Below are positions 1,803 through 15,402 of a stretch of 35,687 nucleotides of DNA, piece by piece. Origin of the DNA: an uncultured bacterium (lineage in GTDB: Bacteria; Krumholzibacteriota; Krumholzibacteriia; LZORAL124-64-63); NCBI GenBank assembly GCA_903912525.1, contig CAIWHK010000005.1:1-35687 (forward strand), given 5' to 3'. Within the stretch, counting starts at the first letter, position 1; each line of letters begins with the position of its first letter. The position numbers were made by a program, and so were the translations under genes. The notes below the pieces were generated by a model that saw only the letters and a program-made list of their open reading frames with translations, ran no database searches and had not been told where the DNA came from.

Positions 1803-2606
1803 ATGATGCGACGGGGCCTTTCCAAATGGATCCGGGGACCGGAGGCGGTCCCGGGGCCCGCGCCCGACGCGGCGATGGGAAGCGCCGGCACGCCTGCCTC
1901 CGACCTGGAACTGGAAAAGCGCTGGCTGCAGCTGGTCGCGATCGATACGGAGCAGTTCCGGGCCCTCTATGACAAGTACCATGACCCGTTGTTCCGCTTC
2001 ATCGCGCACCACGTCAGCGACGCCGAGACGGTGCAGGACCTGACCCAGGACGTGTTCATCCACGCGCTGGAGCACCTGGACCGCTATTCGTGGCAGGGCT
2101 ACTCGTTCGGGGCCTGGCTGTTCCACATCGCCCGGCGGCAGGTGCTGCCGCACTACTGGCGATCGCAGGTCCGGCACCCGGACCACGCGGTGGCGGGCAA
2201 CGAGGCCGTCGCCGACGCGAGCGCCGACCAGGCCGGCGACCTGGAGCGCGAGCAGCTGCGGGGACGCGTGCGCGCGTTGATGGCGCGCTTCCCGGACGAA
2301 CGGTACGACGTGTTCGTGCTGCGCGTGTTCATGGAGTGGTCGGAACAGGATACCGCGCTGGCGATGGGCATGAAGCCCAAGACCGTGCGCTCGCACCTGG
2401 CGCGGGGCCGCGCCCAGCTGGCCGAATGGCTGGGCAAGGAAGCGGCCCTGACCGATGACGAGCGCCGCGCCCTGGGCCGGGCGCAGGCCGCCGAGCGGGG
2501 CCTGGACCTGGTCCCGTCGCCGCGAGGGCAGCGCAATCGTCCGCAGGATGCCGATGGGCATATGGGTGGGGATAGCGATGTCGAGGGGGGTGATGACGAT
2601 GACTGA
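1803..2606 (+). CDS. ECF-type RNA polymerase sigma factor with acidic C-terminal extension
   Basis: 267 residues. Region 2 spans about 51-120, including DLTQDVFIHALEHLDRY and GAWLFHIARRQVLPHYWR, the helices that bind core polymerase and the -10 element. Region 4 spans about 155-210, with the HTH EQDTALAMGMKPKTVRSHLARGR for the -35 element. Sigma regions 1 and 3 are absent, as in ECF sigmas. Unusual features are a 40-residue low-complexity N-terminus and a roughly 57-residue C-terminal tail ending EGGDDDD; most ECF sigmas stop soon after region 4. The gene ends inside the next gene, which encodes a membrane protein, the usual arrangement for a sigma and its regulator. Its regulon is unknown. 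Confidence 0.9.
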   Translation: MMRRGLSKWIRGPEAVPGPAPDAAMGSAGTPASDLELEKRWLQLVAIDTEQFRALYDKYHDPLFRFIAHHVSDAETVQDLTQDVFIHALEHLDRYSWQGYSFGAWLFHIARRQVLPHYWRSQVRHPDHAVAGNEAVADASADQAGDLEREQLRGRVRALMARFPDERYDVFVLRVFMEWSEQDTALAMGMKPKTVRSHLARGRAQLAEWLGKEAALTDDERRALGRAQAAERGLDLVPSPRGQRNRPQDADGHMGGDSDVEGGDDDD

Positions 2607-3321
2607 CCCGCTGGACAAACTGCTGCGCGATGCGGCCGGCGCCACGCCGGACCCCGGTCCTTCACGTCATTTCATACGCGCGGGCCTGGCGCCGGAACTG
2701 GCGCGACGCCGGCGGGGCGAGAGGCGCGCGCGGGTGAGGCTGACGCTGGCGATGGCGGCGGCGTTGGTGGTCATCATGTGCGGGCAGTTGGGGAGCGAGG
2801 ATTTCCAGACCATCCTTGAGACCAGGATCAAAGGTGGCAGGACGTGGCTGGTTTACCGGCAGGGAATCGGCGACAGCGAAGTCTGGACCCGCCCCGCCGG
2901 CCAATACGGCCACATCGTCGAGAAAGACGCGGTGGAACTGCTCCAGCAGCACGCCGCGAACCAGGGCATCATCGTCGGCCTCCAAGGGTATGCTCTCGGC
3001 GGCGACACGTGGTTCATCATCCAGCAGGACTTTCTGGTCAACGGAGCATACGTCCTGTCCGGCGACGGCGCCGAAGGCCAGGGCGAGAAGATCCCCGAGG
3101 GAATCAGGGCGTACATGCGCGCCGGCGATCTGCAGAACCCGATCAGGTTGATGGAAATCAGCCACAGTCGCGATCCGGACTACTCGCTCCCGATGACGTG
3201 GAACGGACTCGAATGGGACGTCAATGCCTGGCGCATCACGCTGCCGGGGATGCCTGAAATCATCTACTTCACCGGTCTTCGCCATGACGGCGTGCGGTCG
3301 AAGGACGGGGATCCTTTCTGA
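2599..3321 (+). CDS. Single-pass membrane protein, possible anti-sigma factor
   Basis: 240 residues. The cytoplasmic N-terminus ends in an Arg-rich stretch (about residues 36-47), followed by one membrane segment (about 48-62, LTLAMAAALVVIMC) and a soluble C-terminal domain of about 175 residues with no motif I recognise. Position and topology suggest an anti-sigma factor or sensor for the preceding sigma. However, the zinc-binding HxxxCxxC signature of ZAS-type anti-sigma factors is absent, so this is inference. ATG at 2599 has a G-rich site at 2584-2590 with 8-nt spacing and overlaps the sigma gene by 8 bp; ATG at 2593 is possible. A hairpin follows the stop. Confidence 0.65.
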   Translation: MTDPLDKLLRDAAGATPDPGPSRHFIRAGLAPELARRRRGERRARVRLTLAMAAALVVIMCGQLGSEDFQTILETRIKGGRTWLVYRQGIGDSEVWTRPAGQYGHIVEKDAVELLQQHAANQGIIVGLQGYALGGDTWFIIQQDFLVNGAYVLSGDGAEGQGEKIPEGIRAYMRAGDLQNPIRLMEISHSRDPDYSLPMTWNGLEWDVNAWRITLPGMPEIIYFTGLRHDGVRSKDGDPF

Positions 3322-3367: not shown

Positions 3368-3538
3368 CTAGCCGTTCAACACCCAATGCACGCTGGTTAC
3401 ATTGACGACCTTGCCGGGCACCGGACTTACTCCATCACTATCCTGAATCGGCTCGACACAGCCACATTCACAGAGCACTGGCGGCTCGGTCGGCTCCGGT
3501 TTGTCCGGGTCAATAGGATCATTGAGTTCGCGAAACAT
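3368..3538 (-). CDS. Candidate RiPP precursor peptide, 56 residues, CECGC motif
   Basis: A 56-residue ORF starting 45 nt after the stop of a radical SAM/SPASM gene on the same strand. The start ATG has a near-ideal GAGGAGG with 6-nt spacing, which supports translation. The peptide has an acidic Pro-rich N-terminal half (MFRELNDPIDPDKPEPTEPP), a tight cluster of three cysteines (C23, C25, C27 in VLCECGC), and a C-terminal stretch VVNVTSVHWVLNG. This layout, a leader-like region plus a Cys-bearing core beside a radical SAM maturase, is that of ribosomally made, post-translationally modified peptides. I do not recognise its family. An extension to an upstream codon at 3577 lacks a ribosome site. 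No protease or exporter gene lies beside it. Confidence 0.7.
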   Translation of the reverse strand: MFRELNDPIDPDKPEPTEPPVLCECGCVEPIQDSDGVSPVPGKVVNVTSVHWVLNG

Positions 3539-3583
3539 CACGCACCTCCTCGTCTTTGCTGCCTGAGCGGGGACCATCTGAGA

Positions 3584-5086
3584 TCACATCATCTTCGTGG
3601 CTTCCAACCACGACCTCATCCCGGGCGGTTGCAAAAATGCGCGCGCCACGAGCCTGAGTTGTTGTTCCCGGGATCGGCGATACGTTTCGCACATTTCGGG
3701 ATGGATTGTCGAGGATCCCCCGCCGCCACCGGCAGACGCCTGCGAGGCGAAGCAAAGCCCGCAACCGCGCACCGCCCAGCACTGCGCGCACCGCTCACTC
3801 ACCGCGGCGTTGAAATCCTCCTGAAGGCTTCGCACCCGCTGTGAATCGATGCCGGTCGCGACATTGCCGATCGGCATCACGTCGCCGGTGCGCTCGCAGG
3901 GATGCAGCGATCCGTCCGGCATCACGTGCAGCTTGCGTCGGCCCGGCCGGCAGTTGCCGCCCGGCGTCCGCACTGGACCCAGTGGTGAGCGATCGCGGTG
4001 ATGCCAGCGGATGAGCACCGGCTCGCAGAGCGCGGCGGCCACCGGCCCCGCCTCGTGCCGTTTGCTGGCTGCCATCGCCGTGAGGTAGCGGTCCTCTTCC
4101 GCCGCCAGCGCCACAGCCAGCTCCTGATGCTCTCCGCGCGTGGCCGGCCAGTCGTGCCCGCGCAGGTCAGCACGGCTGACGCGCAGGCGCGGCCGACGCG
4201 TGACGCCGTGGCGGCGAAACGGCGGGAAGTCGGCGAAGTACGCGGCGACCGCGGCAACGTCGACCGGCGGCGCCAGGGTCACCATGAGCGAGAGGCGGTC
4301 GGCCGCCGACGGGTCGCGGTCGAGCAGGCGGTGGAGACCGGCCTCGATCCGCGCGTGCGTGGGCCGGCCGCCGGCATCCACACGGTGGCGGTCGTGCTCG
4401 GATGCCGGCCCGTCCAGGCTCACCTGCAGGAACATGCGCTCGCGCACGGCCAGGACGATGATGCGGTCGTCCAGCAGCACGCCGTTCGAGTCGAGGGAGA
4501 ACTGCACCGCCGCGCCCCGCGGGTGCGCGCGCGCCGCCGCGACGACGGCGCTGATCAGTTCCGGCTCGAGCAGCGCTTCGCCGCCGTAGAACGAGATTAC
4601 GGGCGGTTCGTTGGGCCATGCCCGGTCCAGGAAGTACGCGACCGCGGCGAGCGCCGTCGCGACCGGCATGCTGCGCTCGCCGTGCCCGCGCACCCAGCCC
4701 AGGTCCGCAGCGTGCAGGCAGTAGCGGCAGCGCAGGTTGCAGCGCTCGGTGACCGTCAGCACCAAGTGCTGGAGGTCGCGGTCGCAGGCGCCGGCGGCGG
4801 CCGTCTCTTCAGGCGGCGGCACCAGGCGTGGCCGCTGCGCCTGGAAAAGGCCGCGCTCACTTCGCCCGCGCTCGATGGCGAAGAAGGCCGCGCGGACGGA
4901 CAGCGCACCGAATTGCGGCGACAGTTCGGCGACGATCTCCCGGCGGGTCCGCGGTCCGTACAGCGGGAGCACCGCCGCGAGCACCGGCTCTACTTCCACC
5001 AGCCCGTTCGTGTGGACGTCATAGACGATAGGTCGACCGTCGAGGTCGAAGACGTGGCAGAAGGGGGCGAGCGGGCTACGCTTCAT
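3584..5086 (-). CDS. Radical SAM/SPASM peptide-maturase-like enzyme
   Basis: 500 residues. An N-terminal domain (about 8-90, with VYDVHTNGLVEVEP and REIVAEL) resembles the leader-binding, PqqD-like domains of peptide maturases. The radical SAM core follows: CNLRCRYC gives the [4Fe-4S] ligands C116, C120 and C123, and YGGE lies at 167-170. The C-terminal SPASM region has seven Cys (C379, C397, C433, C436, C442, C445, C466), with CAQCWAVRGCGLC typical of auxiliary cluster ligands. Such enzymes install C-C or thioether links in peptides, and a candidate substrate peptide follows 45 nt downstream. I chose ATG at 5086; in-frame ATGs at 5101 and 5140 are possible because none has a clear ribosome site. 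Confidence 0.85.
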   Translation of the reverse strand: MKRSPLAPFCHVFDLDGRPIVYDVHTNGLVEVEPVLAAVLPLYGPRTRREIVAELSPQFGALSVRAAFFAIERGRSERGLFQAQRPRLVPPPEETAAAGACDRDLQHLVLTVTERCNLRCRYCLHAADLGWVRGHGERSMPVATALAAVAYFLDRAWPNEPPVISFYGGEALLEPELISAVVAAARAHPRGAAVQFSLDSNGVLLDDRIIVLAVRERMFLQVSLDGPASEHDRHRVDAGGRPTHARIEAGLHRLLDRDPSAADRLSLMVTLAPPVDVAAVAAYFADFPPFRRHGVTRRPRLRVSRADLRGHDWPATRGEHQELAVALAAEEDRYLTAMAASKRHEAGPVAAALCEPVLIRWHHRDRSPLGPVRTPGGNCRPGRRKLHVMPDGSLHPCERTGDVMPIGNVATGIDSQRVRSLQEDFNAAVSERCAQCWAVRGCGLCFASQASAGGGGGSSTIHPEMCETYRRSREQQLRLVARAFLQPPGMRSWLEATKMM

Positions 5087-5150
5087 GGCTGCGGATCCCA
5101 TCGTCGGGGTTGGGCTGTCCCCATCGTTCCGCGTCCACATGTACCCGGAC

Positions 5151-5173
5151 ACCGTTCCGTCATGCGGAACGGT
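5151..5173. promoter_or_regulatory. 9-5-9 inverted repeat between divergent genes, possible operator
   Basis: ACCGTTCCG at 5151-5159 and CGGAACGGT at 5165-5173 form a perfect inverted repeat around a 5-nt centre. A further CGTTCCG half-site is at 5125-5131. The repeat lies 65 bp upstream of the radical SAM start and about 144 bp upstream of the divergent secreted-protein gene. The position and symmetry suit a dimeric regulator, but a transcript hairpin is an alternative. Confidence 0.45.
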
Positions 5174-5316
5174 CCCAACATTCCCTTGAATTCGGCTTTT
5201 CAACCTGTCACGCTGCCCTGTGGGAACGAACAGCTTGCCGCGCCGGACAGGAACGCCGGCACCGGCAGGCCGCATCCCACACCCATCGCATCCGGACCTT
5301 ATCGCGGGGGATATCC

Positions 5317-6878: not shown

Positions 6879-7322
6879 ATGGCCAAAACAACTTACGATC
6901 CGGTACTGCCCACCGGACACGATTCGGAGGCAGCCCGGGCTGCCCTGGCCGTACTGGTACGACTTGTGAAAGGGGACCTGACCTTCCGCGTCGATGAATC
7001 GGAAGTGTCCGTGGTGTTGCCCGAACCGGCCGTGAGGTTGCTCGTGGATCTGCTTACTGCCATGGCCGACGGCCACGCCGTGACGTTGGTTCCCATCCAC
7101 GCCGAACTGACCACCCAACAGGCCGCCGACCTGCTCGGCGTATCTCGGCCGTTCCTCGTCAAGGAGATCGAAGAAGGCAGGCTGCCGCACCGCAAAGTGG
7201 GCACGCACCGCCGCGTCCTTTTCCACGACCTGATGGCGTACAAGCAGGCGGGCGATCGGTCGCGCGAGCAGGCACTGGACGACCTGGCCGCGCAGGGGCA
7301 GGACCTCGACCTCGGCTATTGA
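6879..7322 (+). CDS. Excisionase-type HTH antitoxin
   Basis: 147 residues. The C-terminal half is an excisionase/MerR-like winged helix-turn-helix (about 77-120: [22 protein letters not shown], then [22 protein letters not shown]). An N-terminal domain of about 70 residues has no motif I know. In this family the protein binds its own promoter and neutralises a downstream PIN-domain RNase. The next gene is exactly such a PIN protein and starts about at this stop codon, so the pair reads as a type II toxin-antitoxin module. The ATG is preceded by GGGGAACC. The promoter candidate lies just upstream, where autorepression would act. Confidence 0.85.
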
Positions 7323-7324
7323 GA

Positions 7325-7894
7325 ATGACGTCGCTTACCGCGGTCCTGGATGCCTGCGTCCTGTATCCGGCTCCCCTGCGCGACCTGCTGCTGCAACTCT
7401 CCCTCGCGGGGCTCTACCGAGCGCGGTGGACGGACGAAATCCACGGCGAATGGATGGCCTCGCTTCTCGCACGTCGTCCCGACCTGACACATGAGCAGCT
7501 GGACCGTACGCGGACACTGATGAACGCAAGCGGGCTTGATTGCCTGGTGACGGGATATGCCCACCTTGTCGACGGACTGCAGTTGCCGGACGAGTGCGAT
7601 CGGCATGTCCTGGCTGCCGCGATACGATGTGGCGCGGCGGTGATTGTCACCTGCAACCAGCGCGATTTCCCGGCAGCCTATCTCGGCCAGTTCGGGATTG
7701 AAGCCCAGCATCCGGACGCGTTCATCGCGGAGCTGATGGACGCGGATCAGCAGCGGGTTCTCCAGTCCGTCCGGCGCGTACGCTTGCGACTGCGGAACCC
7801 GCCCATGTCCGCCGACGAGTACCTCCACATCCTCTCCCGCCAATCCCTGCCCGCAACCGTAACCGCGCTGGACCGGCATCGCACATCGATCTAG
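7325..7894 (+). CDS. PIN-domain ribonuclease toxin (VapC-like)
   Basis: 189 residues. The opening TAVLDACVLYPAPLRDLLLQL carries the first catalytic Asp (D9) of a PIN nuclease, followed by RARWTDEIHGEW and, later, DECDRHVLAAAIRCGAAVIVTCNQRDFP, which supplies the other acidic residues around the Mg site. PIN toxins cleave RNA and are held inactive by the partner antitoxin. The gene follows the HTH antitoxin directly. ATG at 7325 lies 2 bp past the antitoxin stop; a TTG at 7319 would overlap that stop and would also fit coupling. Confidence 0.85.
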   Translation: MTSLTAVLDACVLYPAPLRDLLLQLSLAGLYRARWTDEIHGEWMASLLARRPDLTHEQLDRTRTLMNASGLDCLVTGYAHLVDGLQLPDECDRHVLAAAIRCGAAVIVTCNQRDFPAAYLGQFGIEAQHPDAFIAELMDADQQRVLQSVRRVRLRLRNPPMSADEYLHILSRQSLPATVTALDRHRTSI

Positions 7895-8123: not shown

Positions 8124-10184
8124 ATGATCGAGACGAAGAAGAACACGCTGCACAACCACTTGCTGGCGCTGAAGGGCGGCGAGAAGGTGTTCGAGAACGC
8201 CTTCCAGTCGATCAGCCGCATGATCCTCGATGCGCCCATCGAGAAGGTGGTGGTGAACGGAAAGACCACCTACGACTTCAAGATCTTCCGCGACGGGAAG
8301 AAGCACATCGTCGGGATGTATGACGAAATCAACAGTTTCGTCTCATACGTCAAGGACGCGGCCGAGGGCGGGTCGTCGCAGGAGATGGCCTATGTGCTGG
8401 TCGGCGAGCCGGGCAACGGCAAGACGTTCTTCGTCGAGTACGTCAGTCGCCTGTACCGCGAGTTCCTGGCCAGGGAGCCGAACAAGCGCTTCAGCTTCCG
8501 GTTCACCGGCCTGGAAAAAATCGGGACATACGGCAAGATAACGTCCATCGAGAGCCAGACCTACGAGGACCCCGCAGTGCTCGCGATGAACCTCCTGGAG
8601 ACCCCCGAGGAGAGCCGCGACCACCTGGCCCGCAAGGTCGGCTTCAGCGATGCACAACTCGAGCACATGTACGCCAACTACCGCCCCCTCGGCGCGTGCA
8701 GCGGCTACATCTGGAGCGACCTCAGGCGCGCCTACGACGGCAACGTCGTCGAGATGCTCAAGCACATCGAAGTGTTCCCCGTGCCGCTGACCGAGAGCCT
8801 GGGCACCGTCACCGGCAAGTACCCCGCGAAGGACAAGATCACCAGCAGCGCCGTCGACCTGCTGGGCGAGGAGTCCATCCAGCGCCTGCTGCACATCACC
8901 GACACGAACAACCCGTACCGCTTCGACCTGCGGCGGGGCGCCCTGGCGCGCGTGGCGGGCGGCGGCATCCACTTCGCCGACGAGATGTTCAAGAACAAGA
9001 AGGACCTGGTGCAGGTGTACCTGGGCGTCATCCAGAACCGCACCATCGAGATGGACGGCTTCAAGTGGCCGATCGACATGCTGATCGTTGCCACCAGCAA
9101 CAACAGCGAGTTCAACCGCTTCCTGGCCGAGAAGGAAGAGGCGCCGATCATCGATCGCTGCCGCATCTGCTACATCTCGCACAACACGAACTACCGCCAG
9201 CAGACGCAGCTGACGCAGTACGCCATCGGCGGCGACACCAAGACGACGCTGACCCGCGAGGTGCTGCACCAGGACCCGAACCTGAACTACGCCGCCTCGG
9301 TGGCCGCCATCCTGACGCGCCTGCCGCGCAGCGAGAAGCTGACCCCCATCGAGACGATGAAGCTGGCCGCGGGCGAGGTGGCCGGCGAGAAGAGCATCAA
9401 GGCCCTGGCCGAGGTCATCGACACGCTGAGCCAGGACACCGACATCACCAACCGCTTCGGCCAGAAGGGGCTGGGCCAGCGCAACCTGGGCCGCGCCATC
9501 CAGCTGATGGTGGAAAGTTCGGAGACGAACGAGGGCCAGTGCATGTTCGCCTACGACGTCTTCAAGACCGTCGAGCGCGTCATCCTGGACTACGTCCACG
9601 ACAACAACGACCGCGCCAAGTACCTGGAGGACCTGAAGACCGCCCGCGGCCTGTACCGCGAACGGATCATGACCGAGATGTTCAACGCGTACATGGACGA
9701 GCCGCAGGCCATCCGCAAGGACGTGCTGAACTACGTGAACATGATCATCGGCATCGACGCCGAGCACCTGGGCTCGGACAAGATGTGGAAGTACAAGGAC
9801 CCGCAGACCGGCGAACTGCGCGCATTGAAGGTGGACGAGCGCTTCATCCGGAGCATCGAGGAGCGCCTGCACCTGAAGACCGACGAGCAGCGCGAGACCT
9901 TCCGCACCTCGATCCGCAAGATCTACGGGCAGAAGATCTCCATGAACCCGAACTACGACTTCATGGACAACCTCGAGCTGGTCAAGGCCGTCACCGACGT
10001 GCGGCTCAAGAGCGACATCGCCGGCGCCGGCAGCCTGATCGGCGCCCTGGCCAATCGCACCAACGAGGAGAACCAGAAGCTCTACGACCGCATGATCGAC
10101 ACCATGCTGCACAAGCTGGGCTATTGCCGGACCTGCGCGCAGAAGACCATCGAGTACTTCTGCACCCAGGAAGACGAGAACTAG
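8124..10184 (+). CDS. prkA: Serine protein kinase PrkA (AAA+ type)
   Basis: 686 residues, close to the PrkA/YeaG family (about 640-690). The N-terminal AAA domain has Walker A GEPGNGKT at 94-101 and a Walker B-like GGGIHFADEMFK near 278-290. A helical C-terminal region follows, ending with a Cys cluster (CRTCAQKTIEYFC). PrkA proteins are AAA+-related Ser/Thr kinases or proteases made under starvation and in stationary phase or sporulation, normally working with a YeaH/YhbH protein and SpoVR. Both partners follow here with 4-bp and 22-bp gaps. The ATG is preceded by a GGGGG site. A sigma-54-like promoter lies about 90 bp upstream. Confidence 0.96.
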   Translation: MIETKKNTLHNHLLALKGGEKVFENAFQSISRMILDAPIEKVVVNGKTTYDFKIFRDGKKHIVGMYDEINSFVSYVKDAAEGGSSQEMAYVLVGEPGNGKTFFVEYVSRLYREFLAREPNKRFSFRFTGLEKIGTYGKITSIESQTYEDPAVLAMNLLETPEESRDHLARKVGFSDAQLEHMYANYRPLGACSGYIWSDLRRAYDGNVVEMLKHIEVFPVPLTESLGTVTGKYPAKDKITSSAVDLLGEESIQRLLHITDTNNPYRFDLRRGALARVAGGGIHFADEMFKNKKDLVQVYLGVIQNRTIEMDGFKWPIDMLIVATSNNSEFNRFLAEKEEAPIIDRCRICYISHNTNYRQQTQLTQYAIGGDTKTTLTREVLHQDPNLNYAASVAAILTRLPRSEKLTPIETMKLAAGEVAGEKSIKALAEVIDTLSQDTDITNRFGQKGLGQRNLGRAIQLMVESSETNEGQCMFAYDVFKTVERVILDYVHDNNDRAKYLEDLKTARGLYRERIMTEMFNAYMDEPQAIRKDVLNYVNMIIGIDAEHLGSDKMWKYKDPQTGELRALKVDERFIRSIEERLHLKTDEQRETFRTSIRKIYGQKISMNPNYDFMDNLELVKAVTDVRLKSDIAGAGSLIGALANRTNEENQKLYDRMIDTMLHKLGYCRTCAQKTIEYFCTQEDEN

Positions 10185-10188
10185 CGCC

Positions 10189-11427
10189 ATGGACGATCGC
10201 GCACGGGCATGGCTGGAACAGTTGCGGGCGGCGGGACTCGTCCTGCCGTCGGCCACGCCCGTGCTGCGCCTGGGATCGCTGGACGACCTCATGGCGCGCG
10301 ACAGCCGCCGCGAGGAAGACGGCTTCCCGCGCAAGATCCGCATCGGCAAGCTGGTCAAGCCGGGCAAGGGCGGGCGCAACAAGGTCGTGGTGGTGCCCAC
10401 CACGGTCGAGGAGAAGCTCGTCCACGACCCGCGGTTCAAGGAAGAGGGCGACGGCGGCGAGCAGGGCGGCAGCGGCGCCGGCCAGGAAGGCGAGGTCATC
10501 GGCGAGCAGCCGGTGCGCCCCCAGGACGGCGACGGCGGCGGCGCGGGCCCCGGGCAGGGCGAGGGCTCGAACCACGAGATGGAAGCCAACGCCTACGACC
10601 TCGGCCGCATCCTGACCGAGCAGTTCAAGCTGCCCAACCTGAAGGACAAGGGCAAGCGGCGCTCGCTCACGAAGTACAGCTACGACCTGACCGACCGGCA
10701 CCAGGGCTTCGGCCAGCTGCTGGACAAGAAGGCCACGCTGCGGCGCATCATCGAGACCAACATCGCCCTGGGCCGGCTGCAGCCCGGCGAGGAACCGGAC
10801 ACCAGCGGGTTCCTGGTGGCCCCCCGCGACAAGATCTACCGGATCCTGTCGCGCGAGAAGGATTTCGAATCGCAGGCGATCATCTTCTTCCTGCGCGACT
10901 ACTCGGGCTCGATGAGCGGCAAGCCGACCGAGGTCATCGTCAGCCAGCACGTCATGATCTACAGCTGGCTGCTGTACCAGTACTCGGGCCAGGTGACCTC
11001 GCGGTTCGTGCTGCACGACACCGACGCCAAGGAAGTGCCGGACTTCTACACCTACTACAACAGCCGCGTGGCCGGCGGCACCAAGGTGGCGTCCGGCTTC
11101 AAGCTGGTGAACGAAATCGTGGCCCGGGAGAACCTGGCCAGCGACTACAACATCTACGTCTTCCACGGCACCGACGGCGACGACTGGGACAGCGAGGGCA
11201 AGGAGTTCCTGCCGGAGCTGGAGAAGATGATGGGTTACGCGTCGCGCATCGGCGTGACCATCGCCGAGTCGGGCTTCGGCGCCGCTGGCCAGACCGAGGT
11301 CGAGAAGTACCTGAAGGCGTCGGGCCTGCTCGAGAGCCGGCGCAAGCAACTGCGCCTGGACGTGATGCCGGAGAGCGCCGAGGAAACCCGGGTCATCGAG
11401 GGCATCAAGGCCCTGATCAGCGAATAG
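10189..11427 (+). CDS. yeaH: YeaH/YhbH family protein (DUF444) with vWA-like metal site
   Basis: 412 residues. An N-terminal basic stretch (RKIRIGKLVKPGKGGRNK) precedes an acidic Gly/Gln-rich linker (about 85-130). The C-terminal half is a von Willebrand factor A-like fold with a MIDAS-type DYSGS at 237-241, inside FFLRDYSGSMSGKP. Proteins of this family are always found with PrkA and are thought to be part of, or a client of, the same stress-response machine; the biochemical role is unsettled. The start follows the prkA stop by only 4 bp, implying coupled translation. Spacing to spoVR is 22 bp. Confidence 0.94.
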   Translation: MDDRARAWLEQLRAAGLVLPSATPVLRLGSLDDLMARDSRREEDGFPRKIRIGKLVKPGKGGRNKVVVVPTTVEEKLVHDPRFKEEGDGGEQGGSGAGQEGEVIGEQPVRPQDGDGGGAGPGQGEGSNHEMEANAYDLGRILTEQFKLPNLKDKGKRRSLTKYSYDLTDRHQGFGQLLDKKATLRRIIETNIALGRLQPGEEPDTSGFLVAPRDKIYRILSREKDFESQAIIFFLRDYSGSMSGKPTEVIVSQHVMIYSWLLYQYSGQVTSRFVLHDTDAKEVPDFYTYYNSRVAGGTKVASGFKLVNEIVARENLASDYNIYVFHGTDGDDWDSEGKEFLPELEKMMGYASRIGVTIAESGFGAAGQTEVEKYLKASGLLESRRKQLRLDVMPESAEETRVIEGIKALISE

Positions 11428-11449
11428 GCGGCAAGGAACAGGTGGCAAA

Positions 11450-13105
11450 TTGCAGCTGATCGACCAGCACGTCAAACTGATCATGGAGGGCTGCAAGGAG
11501 CGCGCCCGCGACGCCGGGCTGCGCTTCGACGACGAGTCGCTCGAGTACGTCGTGACCAACCGTGACCTGCTGGAACTGTCGCCCAAGGTCATGATCCCCA
11601 CGATGTACGACTACTGGGTGCACGACGTCGAAGTGCTGCAGGGCAAGGGCCGCTACGAGCTCTACCCCCACAACCCGTTCGAGACCGTGATCAACACGCG
11701 GCCGGCGATCAGCTTCTACAACGACAACAACCCCGACTGGCTGAACGTGATGATCTTCTATCACGTGCTCGGCCACATCGATTTCTTCCAGAACAACCTG
11801 TACTTCAGGCACACCTGGGACGACGACTTCACGGGCCAGGCCCTGGCCGACAAGCGCGTGATCGCCAAGCTGCGCTCGGAGAAGGGCCGCTGGGTCGACT
11901 ATGTGATCGAGTTCGCCCGCTCGCTGGACAACCTGGTCGACTACCACGGGCTGCTGGCCGAGCGCCACCGCCCCGAGGTGGCGGCGTTCCCGCCCCGCGT
12001 CGACTACTACTTCGACGTTTTCCTGCAGGACGAGAAGAAGGTCCGCGTCAGCGATTTCGTGAAGGAGATCGAGCGCTTCAACGAACTGCAGCGCCGCCTG
12101 GGCGACGCCGCCGAGGACGAGTTCTTCAAGGGCGTCCAGTCGCGGCACCCCGAGTTCCACGCCATGTTCGAGAAGGCCGGCCGCCCCCGCGCCCGCCGGG
12201 GCCGCGACGTCATGCGGTTCCTGATCGACCACTCGGAGTTCCTGAACCGCGACGAGAACAAGTGGATGAAGACGGTCATCGAGATCGTCCGCAACACGTC
12301 GCTGTATTTCCAGCCCCAGATCCGCACGAAGATCATGAACGAGGGCTGGGCCAGCTACTGGCACGAGACGCTGTTCATGCGCGACGACCGCATCGCCGGG
12401 CACGAGGTCGACTTCGCCCGCGTCAATGCCGCGGTGACGGCCATGCCGCGCGTGGGCCTGAACCCCTACGCCCTGGGCATGCGGCTGTTCTACTTCATCG
12501 AGGAAGCCGCGAACAAGGGGCGCTACAGCCGCTCGTTCCTGTCGCTGCTGGACGCCGACCAGCGCCGCAAGTTCGACGGCGTCACCGGCAAGGGTCGCGA
12601 CTACATGTTCCACATCCGGGAGAACCTGAACGACTTCCTGTTCATCAACAGCTTCGTCGAACAGGACTTCGTCGATCGCAACGACCTGTTCGTGGCCGAC
12701 CGCGTCCTGGACGAGAAGCGCATGGTCTGGCAGTGGTACGTCAAGAGCCGCAAGGCGGAGGACTATCGGCAGATGGTGCTGGACGGCCTCTACCACCCGC
12801 CACACGTGACGATCGACCTCGATCGCACCACCCCCGAGAGCCTGTGGCTGGACCACGAGTTCGAGGGCAAGCCGCTGGTGCGCGACTTCGTGCACAACAC
12901 GCTGCTGGGGCTGGAATTCCTCTGGGGCGGCAAGGTCCAACTGGACACCAGCGAGGTCCAGGCGATCAAGAAGCCCGACCAGAAGCAGCAGCCGACGCTG
13001 CCGGGGATGGCGCCGACCATCGAGGCGCCGGGCGAAGCGGAGATCCAATGGCAACGCGTGCGCTACACCATGAAGGACCGCAAGTTGAGCCGGGGGCTGG
13101 TGTGA
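11450..13105 (+). CDS. spoVR: SpoVR family protein
   Basis: 551 residues, starting at a TTG with AGGTGG just upstream. The family signature is plain: MIPTMYDYWVHDVE, NPDWLNVMIFYHVLGHIDFFQNN (HxxGHxDFF), and later EGWASYWHETLFM and VGLNPYALGMRLF. SpoVR is needed for the spore cortex in Bacillus, but the family is widespread in non-sporulating bacteria together with PrkA and YeaH, where it belongs to a stationary-phase module; the reaction is unknown. The conserved His residues suggest metal binding. It ends in a GTGA overlap with the second PrkA-like gene, so all four genes are one transcript. Confidence 0.95.
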   Translation: MQLIDQHVKLIMEGCKERARDAGLRFDDESLEYVVTNRDLLELSPKVMIPTMYDYWVHDVEVLQGKGRYELYPHNPFETVINTRPAISFYNDNNPDWLNVMIFYHVLGHIDFFQNNLYFRHTWDDDFTGQALADKRVIAKLRSEKGRWVDYVIEFARSLDNLVDYHGLLAERHRPEVAAFPPRVDYYFDVFLQDEKKVRVSDFVKEIERFNELQRRLGDAAEDEFFKGVQSRHPEFHAMFEKAGRPRARRGRDVMRFLIDHSEFLNRDENKWMKTVIEIVRNTSLYFQPQIRTKIMNEGWASYWHETLFMRDDRIAGHEVDFARVNAAVTAMPRVGLNPYALGMRLFYFIEEAANKGRYSRSFLSLLDADQRRKFDGVTGKGRDYMFHIRENLNDFLFINSFVEQDFVDRNDLFVADRVLDEKRMVWQWYVKSRKAEDYRQMVLDGLYHPPHVTIDLDRTTPESLWLDHEFEGKPLVRDFVHNTLLGLEFLWGGKVQLDTSEVQAIKKPDQKQQPTLPGMAPTIEAPGEAEIQWQRVRYTMKDRKLSRGLV

Positions 13106-15402
13106 GCAGCGAATCGATCAACCGGGCGATGGCCTCGCTGCAGGCCGGCCAGCGCGGACACGATCCTGCGCACGCCGTGCCGTTCGCGGAGTTCCTGGAC
13201 CTGCTGCGCGCCCATCCCGAGCGCCTGATCCGCAACGTCCACCAGGTCTTCCACGACATGGTGCGCGCCTACGTGGGCGAAGGCTTCGACGAGTACCCCG
13301 AGGACCCCGAGTCGATCAACTTCATCGCCTGGGACTTCCGGCGCCTGCTCGTCGAGAACACCGACCAGCCGTTCTTCGCCGACCGCATCTTCGCCAACCG
13401 GCTGATGAACATGATCGAGGCCTTCCGCGGCGGGGCCCAGCAGAACAAGGTCTTCATGTTCGACGGCCCCCCTGGCTGCGGCAAGTCGATCTTCCTGAAC
13501 AACCTGCTGCGCCGCTTCGAGGAGTACGCCGCCAGCGAGGCCGGCCAGCGCTACGAGGTGGTCTGGCGGCTGGACCGCCAGGCGCTGGGCGACCCCGTCG
13601 ACACCGACGTCCAGCCCGTCATGGAGCGACTGTCTGCGCTGTTGGAGAACCTGGGCGACGGCCACGGCCTGCGCGACGACGCCGACGACACCCACCGCCC
13701 GGGTGCACGCCAGAGCTTCGTCGAGGTGCCGTGCCCCAGCCACGACAACCCGATCCTGATGGTGCCGAAGGAACAGCGCCCGGCCTTCATGGACGCGCTG
13801 TTCGAGAACGACGAGTTCAAGTGGAACCTGTCGTACAACAAGGAATACGACTGGGTCTTCCGCGACACGCCGTGCACCATCTGCACCTCGATCTACCAGG
13901 CCCTGCTGCACAAGCTGGGCGACCCGGCGCGCGTGCTGGGCATGCTGCACGCCCGCCCCTACCAGATGGACCGCCGCCTGGGCGAGGGCGTCAGCGTCTT
14001 CAACCCCGGCGACCGCGCCGCGCGCACGCCCGTGGTCACCAACCCGCTGCTGCAGCGCCGGATCAGCTCGCTGCTGCAGGACAGCAACCAGGTGCGCTAC
14101 CTGTTCTCGCGGTACGCGCGCACCAACAACGGCATCTACGCGCTGATGGACCTCAAGGGCCACAACCGCGACCGCCTGTTCGAGCTGCACAACATCATCA
14201 GCGACGGCGTGCACAAGGTGGACGACATCGAGGAGCGCGTGAACTCGCTGTTCCTGGGCGTGATGAACCCCGAGGACAACAAGAACATCCACGGCTTCCA
14301 GTCGCTGACCGACCGCATCGAGTTCATCAACATCTCGTACGTGCTGGATTCGGCCACCGAGGTGGAGATCTACAAGAACATCTTCGGCAAGCACATCGAG
14401 GAGAGCTTCCTGCCGCGCGTGCTGGAGAACTTCGCGCGCATCATCATCTCCAGCCGGCTGAACGAGAAGTCGCCGGCCATGCTCGACTGGATCGGTGATC
14501 CGCGGAAGTACCGCCTGTACTGCGACGAGAGCCTGCACCTGCTGAAGATGTCCATCTACACGGGCGTCATCCCTTCCTGGCTGGACGACGACGACCGGCG
14601 TGCCTTCAACGCGAAGCGCCGCCGCAAGATCATCGCCGAGGCCGAGAACGAGGGCCACACGGGCTTCAGCGGCCGCGACGCCATCGACATCTTCCACGAC
14701 CTGTACTCGACGCACGCGCGCGAGGGCCAACTGATCACGATGGACACGCTGTGCGCCTGGTTCGTCAAGACACGGCCCGAGCTGGCCCGGCAGCTGCCCG
14801 ACGGGTTCCTGGACTCGCTGCGGCGGATGTACAACTACCAGATCCTCCAGGAAGTGAAGGAATCGTTGTACTACTACAACGAGGAACAGATCGCCCGCGA
14901 CCTGATGAACTACATGTTCGCGCTGAACTACGAGACGGGCACGACCGCCGTCTGTTCGTTCACGGGCGAGAAGCTGGAGATCACCGGCGCGTTCCTGACC
15001 GGCATCGAGGATCGCCTGCTGGGCGCCGGCGTGCGCGAAGGCCGCCGCAAGGACTTCCGCGACGCCACGCAGCGCGAGTACACCTCGCGGACGCTGACCC
15101 AGGAGATCATGGTCGAGGGGCGCGACATCCGCGACACGCAGTTGTTCGCCGACCTGCACAAGCGGTACGTGTTCCACCTGAAGGAGAAGGTGCTCGAGCC
15201 GTTCGTGAAGAACGCCAACTTCCGGCGCGCGCTGAAGGACTACGGCGGCGAGGATTTCCGCACCTACGACAAGCGGATCCGCGCCGACGTGACCTTCCTG
15301 CTGGCGAACCTGAGCGATCGCTTCGGGTACACCGAGGCGGGAGCGCGGGAGATGTGCATGTATGTATTGGACAACGATATCGCGTCGGAGTTCGCGGATT
15401 AG
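13102..15402 (+). CDS. Second PrkA-like AAA+ kinase
   Basis: 766 residues from a GTG that overlaps the spoVR stop by 4 bp and has GGGGG 5 nt upstream. Walker A is GPPGCGKS at 122-129. Compared with the upstream PrkA it has an N-terminal extension, a long insert after the P-loop (about 155-215) and a CTIC pair near residue 259. The C-terminal half (NEEQIARDLMNYMFALNYE, CSFTGEKLEITG, FRRALKDYGGEDFRTYDKR, ending YVLDNDIASEFAD) is PrkA-like. The two copies have diverged well beyond a recent duplication. The pairing of both with YeaH and SpoVR suggests two non-equivalent kinases in one assembly; that is inference. Confidence 0.88.
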   Translation: MSSESINRAMASLQAGQRGHDPAHAVPFAEFLDLLRAHPERLIRNVHQVFHDMVRAYVGEGFDEYPEDPESINFIAWDFRRLLVENTDQPFFADRIFANRLMNMIEAFRGGAQQNKVFMFDGPPGCGKSIFLNNLLRRFEEYAASEAGQRYEVVWRLDRQALGDPVDTDVQPVMERLSALLENLGDGHGLRDDADDTHRPGARQSFVEVPCPSHDNPILMVPKEQRPAFMDALFENDEFKWNLSYNKEYDWVFRDTPCTICTSIYQALLHKLGDPARVLGMLHARPYQMDRRLGEGVSVFNPGDRAARTPVVTNPLLQRRISSLLQDSNQVRYLFSRYARTNNGIYALMDLKGHNRDRLFELHNIISDGVHKVDDIEERVNSLFLGVMNPEDNKNIHGFQSLTDRIEFINISYVLDSATEVEIYKNIFGKHIEESFLPRVLENFARIIISSRLNEKSPAMLDWIGDPRKYRLYCDESLHLLKMSIYTGVIPSWLDDDDRRAFNAKRRRKIIAEAENEGHTGFSGRDAIDIFHDLYSTHAREGQLITMDTLCAWFVKTRPELARQLPDGFLDSLRRMYNYQILQEVKESLYYYNEEQIARDLMNYMFALNYETGTTAVCSFTGEKLEITGAFLTGIEDRLLGAGVREGRRKDFRDATQREYTSRTLTQEIMVEGRDIRDTQLFADLHKRYVFHLKEKVLEPFVKNANFRRALKDYGGEDFRTYDKRIRADVTFLLANLSDRFGYTEAGAREMCMYVLDNDIASEFAD

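Follow-up and report, generated by a model that had tools for sequence, protein, structure and literature searches.

A radical SAM/SPASM enzyme and an adjacent CxCxC peptide as a probable new RiPP family in the candidate phylum Krumholzibacteriota

Analysis of a 35,687-nucleotide stretch of DNA from an uncultured bacterium (hereafter the window) revealed a gene for a radical SAM/SPASM enzyme and, just downstream on the same strand, a short open reading frame (ORF) encoding a peptide with three closely spaced cysteines. The best explanation overall, to which we assign a probability of about 0.75, is that the enzyme is a RiPP maturase and the peptide its substrate. Sequence comparisons indicate that the pair is a conserved enzyme and substrate in about two dozen uncultured relatives, and by analogy with known maturases it probably represents a new, thioether-forming RiPP family of the candidate phylum Krumholzibacteriota. 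An encoded putative precursor lies beside the presumed modifying enzyme and the two are kept as a pair, which is the arrangement by which RiPP systems are recognised. The genes concerned are located in the window as follows.

3584..5086 (-): peptide maturase of the radical SAM/SPASM type, 500 aa, with an RRE at the N-terminus (~9-80), CxxxCxxC at 116-123 and the SPASM region at 379-466
3368..3538 (-): precursor of 56 residues, MFRELNDPIDPDKPEPTEPPVLCECGCVEPIQDSDGVSPVPGKVVNVTSVHWVLNG, with leader MFREL, core CECGC and a conserved motif at the C-terminus
1803..2606 (+): ECF-type sigma-70 factor (Pfam Sigma70_r2, 5.4e-15; r4_2, 2.1e-10)
2593..3321 (+): one-helix membrane protein, putative anti-sigma factor; overlaps the sigma gene at 2593-2606 and is convergent with the peptide gene
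8124..13105 (+): PrkA - (YeaH/YhbH-like) - SpoVR gene group with PrkA and SpoVR domains; located beyond the enzyme at 9-13 loci

The preliminary description had reported a 500-residue enzyme with a CxxxCxxC motif, a seven-cysteine SPASM region and a PqqD-like N-terminal domain, and the subsequent comparison with homologues confirmed the first two of these features. The start of the gene was set at 5086 because relatives begin there; the open frame itself reaches 5275. The radical SAM cysteines (C116-x3-C120-x2-C123) were invariant among the homologues aligned, and cysteines 379, 397, 433, 436, 442, 445, and 466 of the SPASM region were kept in 20 of 20. In the Pfam domain search, Radical_SAM matched the enzyme at 5.9e-10, the SPASM model scored 19.3 bits, slightly below its cut-off of 21.5, and PqqD gave no match in the window enzyme. 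In the AlphaFold model (mean pLDDT 91.4, pTM 0.89), residues 10-78 adopt an RRE-like beta-beta-beta-alpha-alpha-alpha order. The nearest solved structures were those of the SCIFF maturase CteB (5WHY and 5WGG), aligned with the model over its full length (~500 columns, E ~1e-20), and the next neighbours were ChlB and anSME. The predicted fold and the CteB alignment support the assignment of the N-terminus as a PqqD-like RRE, which bears out the third feature.

Among the NCBIfam models, CcpM (TIGR04068) ranked first for the enzyme (residues 9-478, E 6.9e-53, 180 bits against a cut-off of 500), followed by RumMC (NF035951; 1.4e-44, 152.6 bits against 720) and QhpD (4.1e-37). The lachnocin maturase model was placed between QhpD and PapB (NF047865; 2.8e-34, 118.8 bits against 340), and the SCIFF maturase model TIGR03974 gave 93 bits against a cut-off of 425. 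Thus, no NCBIfam cut-off was reached by the window enzyme; the same leading models matched all 20 aligned relatives. Most of the top-scoring maturases act on cysteine peptides, and this similarity was counted in favour of the RiPP reading.

The peptide ORF starts 45 nt past the enzyme stop, is preceded by a GAGGAGG ribosome site and carries CECGC at residues 23-27, in agreement with the preliminary description of a 56-residue ORF with a good ribosome site and three cysteines in five residues. The corresponding peptides of the order are mostly 56-66 aa long. They open with a leader M[FY]xKLE (M[FY]x[KE]L), which an acidic stretch separates from CxCxC around residues 23-29, and usually carry [YF][DE]ING close to the C-terminal end. 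Across 16 aligned peptides the C-x-C-x-C pattern was invariant and the x residues varied. The dN/dS values of the ORF (0.10-0.34) pointed to purifying selection, i.e., it evolves as a protein; within the genus, the window gave 0.22 against L042 and 0.32 against L041; for the pair L048 and L050 the value was 0.10. No obvious cleavage motif was recognised in the peptide family. Since the peptide had no match in any family of NCBIfam or Pfam, the suggestion that it belongs to an undescribed family stands against those libraries; the CxCxC core itself, however, is not unique and also occurs in CcpM-type precursors (TIGR04065).

The enzyme is carried by 25 of the 38 genomes of the order and by 27 of the 80 genomes of the class. 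A motif search located a CxCxC ORF beside it in 26 of these 27 genomes (24 of 25 in the order and both of the others), with cores ranging from CxCxC up to CxCxCxCxCxC, which upholds the proposal that the two genes are a maturase and its substrate. Absence of the short ORF beside the enzyme in relatives, which had been named as grounds for rejecting this proposal, was observed in a single genome, G030 (L039; G030:C436:33000-42784), where the enzyme gene is split over three frames and the peptide is missing; there, the whole system was apparently lost as a unit. A profile built from the 16 peptides and run over the 80 class genomes gave matches at E<=0.01 in 19, each of them beside the enzyme; all 19 belonged to the 27 enzyme-bearing genomes and none to the 53 without the enzyme (Fisher p 1.9e-12). 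Furthermore, each of the loci compared had one ORF of the peptide's shape with CxCxC next to the enzyme (20 in 83 kb), and none occurred in 190 kb elsewhere in these loci. The linkage is kept even as the position of the peptide shifts (downstream, upstream, or convergent). The class relatives are apparently all metagenome assemblies of one lineage, which we counted against the pairing explanation. A survey of 387 genomes from across the domain found the enzyme at E <= 1e-90 in only one genome outside the class, G136, where it stands in a row with a cysteine-rich CRCACSC peptide and an ABC transporter (L185:6426-10480). A DNA search against plasmids gave no match.

Variants of the pair were observed within the class. 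In a sister clade (L035, L036, L056, L058, and L060), the cores form longer ladders, from CNCACVCGC to CSCSCSCSCSC, the latter in L036. The peptide lies directly upstream of the enzyme there and is itself preceded by a class I methyltransferase (Methyltransf_25, TehB-like similarity) with a His-rich tail, which is a candidate second modifying enzyme. The methyltransferase genes upstream of the long-ladder peptides are located as follows.

L035:681-1325
L036:374-1030
L056:1992-2636
L058:10723-11361
L060:1924-2613

Elsewhere in the class, a different family is represented by G055, with one CxCxC peptide beside the enzyme, and by G057, which encodes two enzymes together with five CxCxC peptides whose leader, MIFRIRLPI, is distinct (L186 = G057:C101; L187 = G057:C71).

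The preliminary description had noted that no exporter, protease or second modifying enzyme adjoins the pair. Indeed, neither an exporter nor a leader protease was found next to the window pair, and no exporter lies beside the class pairs; the conserved sigma factor and one-helix membrane protein, however, had been overlooked. Clustering of the neighbouring ORFs placed a stress-type ECF sigma factor at 22 loci and the membrane protein at 20 loci, which outlined a four-gene locus of sigma factor, membrane protein, peptide, and enzyme. The membrane protein consists of a short N-terminal cytoplasmic part, one transmembrane helix followed by LGS[DE]xF, and an outer domain of ~170 aa. It had no significant match in Pfam, including the anti-sigma families, and its fold model, based on four sequences, was of low confidence (mean pLDDT 56.6). 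In L054, L055, L057, L059, and L162 the four genes remain linked despite an altered order and orientation, and this points to a functional tie in addition to simple synteny; nevertheless, inheritance of gene order could explain in part why the loci share a position near the sigma pair and PrkA-SpoVR. The probable role of the sigma factor and its membrane partner is to regulate or sense the peptide system. A search upstream of the enzyme and sigma genes for an ECF promoter (GGAAC-spacer-GTC and variants) revealed no excess over shuffles. The PrkA-SpoVR group, although a frequent syntenic neighbour, is probably outside the pathway. In the literature searched, we found no report of PrkA-SpoVR with radical SAM enzymes or of ECF sigma factors with RiPP precursors.

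Two further observations concern the surroundings of the PrkA-SpoVR group. A second PrkA-like protein is encoded right after SpoVR at 13102-15402(+), with a PrkA C-terminal domain (6.9e-51). Between the enzyme and PrkA, at 6891-7894(+), an HTH_17 protein is followed by a PIN_3 protein, the gene ends overlapping as in a toxin-antitoxin-like pair.

Since the architecture of the enzyme is CteB-like, its RRE would bind the peptide leader M[FY]xKLE. The radical SAM cluster would then generate a 5'-deoxyadenosyl radical, and hydrogen would be taken from residues near or downstream of CxCxC. The thiols of the core cysteines would be joined to the radical-bearing carbons as thioethers with the assistance of the SPASM clusters, by analogy with RumMC, PapB, and CteB; a thioether product of the window pair is thus a prediction. 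RumMC2, an enzyme with RRE and SPASM domains, forms alpha-thioethers with one SAM per bridge and some acceptor tolerance (PMC8188230), and PapB forms thioethers from cysteine to Asp/Glu carbons with loose spacing (PMC9413430). By comparison with these two enzymes, the CxCxC thiols are likely the donors, and with three core cysteines per peptide (up to six in the sister clades), up to three rings could be formed.

As to the acceptors, a residue count around the core showed that a fixed CX3D/E spacing is absent from the peptides. Within 15 residues after the core, 2-5 Asp/Glu residues are present in every main-clade CxCxC peptide and 1-2 in the poly-CxC clades. A rule restricting the acceptors to Asp/Glu is unsupported, given the low count of 1-2 in the poly-CxC clades. 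Variation of the x residues and the absence of any fixed partner residue speak slightly more for an alpha-carbon or hairpin geometry than for a strict Cys-Xn-Asp pattern, a preference tempered by the acidic residues that the main clade does hold after its core. We infer leader binding, the chemistry, the acceptor residues, and the regulation; the sequence data themselves show the pair and its conservation, selection on the coding sequence, the motifs of leader and core, the architecture, and the linkage of the genes.

Among known systems, CcpM/CLI_3235 comes closest: it has the core in common with the window pair but not the leader or the score. The pair could accordingly be described as a divergent CcpM/CLI_3235 (TIGR04068/TIGR04065) bacteriocin system rather than a family of its own, which we consider unlikely, though deserving of weight. 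Its CcpM model is the best for the window enzyme, matches it over the full RRE-rSAM-SPASM length and also matches all 20 relatives; both systems have a small adjacent precursor with a KL-type N-terminus, and the CLI_3235 precursors beside the Bacillota relatives likewise combine CxCxC with an N-terminal KKL. However, the enzyme falls far short of the CcpM cut-off, and the window peptide gave no match to the precursor model TIGR04065 (cut-off 26 bits). The leader M[FY]xKLE and the C-terminal DING are absent from CLI_3235, and the window family consists of mostly acidic peptides with the sigma/membrane pair nearby. A profile comparison of the two peptide sets gave a probability of 4.9, with only 8 columns around CxCxC aligned. 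A tree of 82 maturases placed the 25 class enzymes together on one side of a branch (support 100) and apart from the CcpM group. The CcpM accessories TIGR04066 and TIGR04069 were not found in the window genome, although the control genomes had none either. In the paper located (SacP23, PMC10731318), the product chemistry of CLI_3235 is predicted only.

Three other readings abandon the secreted product or the peptide itself. The modified peptide might be retained as a metallothionein-like or sensor metal ligand, with crosslinking shaping the CxC ladder. The alternating cysteines, which reach CSCSCSCSCSC in L036, the His-rich tail of the methyltransferase ahead of the long-ladder peptides, and class pairs with a sigma/membrane partner nearby and no adjacent exporter agree with it; yet a plain cysteine ligand needs no radical SAM maturase, cysteines all engaged in thioethers would bind metal poorly, and no metal transporter was found adjacent (G136 has an ABC transporter by the enzyme). 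On balance, we regard this role as rather improbable. Maturation of a protein subunit in place, as by QhpD for quinohemoprotein amine dehydrogenase, would account for the missing exporter and for the rank of the QhpD model; with no dehydrogenase subunit genes nearby and a peptide of ~56 aa whose cysteines are tightly clustered and whose remainder is variable, it is very unlikely. Finally, the brevity of the ORF and its low-complexity front half might suggest that it is untranslated, either arising by chance or serving as a regulatory tail on the enzyme mRNA. This is contradicted by the codon-level purifying selection, by motifs kept over wide divergence and by a linkage that persists as the position relative to the enzyme moves, and can hardly be maintained.

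Other characterised systems share some features with the window pair. The RumMC1/RumMC2-ruminococcin C system shares the RRE-rSAM-SPASM architecture and supplies the second-best model, and the first hairpin of RumC holds a CxC pair. Ruminococcin C forms sactipeptide hairpins (PMC8188230). It differs in having four cysteines in two hairpins, as opposed to CxCxC here. CteB, a thioether former with RRE, radical SAM, and SPASM domains, is the nearest solved structure, whereas the six-cysteine pattern of SCIFF is missing from the three-cysteine window precursor. Freyrasin-type ranthipeptides of PapB have repeated cysteine donors, and the Asp/Glu-rich surroundings here resemble their Cys-Xn-Asp/Glu acceptors (PMC9413430), but the CX3D/E spacing is not fixed in our peptides. 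Krumholzibacter-type taxa and ranthipeptides are both named in two papers, a Cariaco Basin survey (PMC9902471) and a cold-seep survey (PMC12016038); the accessible part of the former does not describe this peptide/enzyme family. Thus, we regard the pair as a new precursor and maturase family, an unnamed branch within a known class of peptide modification.

This adds a precursor/maturase family open to testing from an uncultured candidate phylum. The natural variation from 3 to 6 cysteines would show how radical SAM enzymes pick ring positions in alternating-cysteine cores, which are also present in the chemically still uncharacterised CcpM/CLI_3235 peptides, and the conserved sigma partner provides a starting point for asking why bacteria of this kind produce the peptides. 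It is conceivable, if doubtful, that the CxC ladder (3-6 Cys) yields unprecedented overlapping rings and that the producer retains the product, which would serve the linked membrane protein and ECF sigma factor as a signal or sensor, i.e., a RiPP-controlled sigma system; that no exporter adjoins the pair is compatible with this.

Several elements were observed in the DNA upstream of the enzyme genes. In five relatives, the 5' leader of the enzyme gene contains a sigma-70-type promoter and, after it, a hairpin that is conserved among them, GGGAAGAGG-TTGTGCTCGCTGCCG-CCTCTTCCC, and then T residues, at these positions.

L047:10960-11045(-)
L048:1672-1760
L050:2983-3070
L051:8688-8770
L053:8065-8170(-)

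The hairpin shows compensatory changes at two pairs and is a possible attenuator in these relatives. No RNA families were found in eight sources including the window, and the leader hairpin had no Rfam match. The hairpin upstream of the window enzyme had a folding z-score of just -1.4. An inverted repeat, CCGTTCCG-CATGA-CGGAACGG, lies upstream of the window enzyme (5087-5200, - strand) and is kept in L041 and L042 of the same genus.
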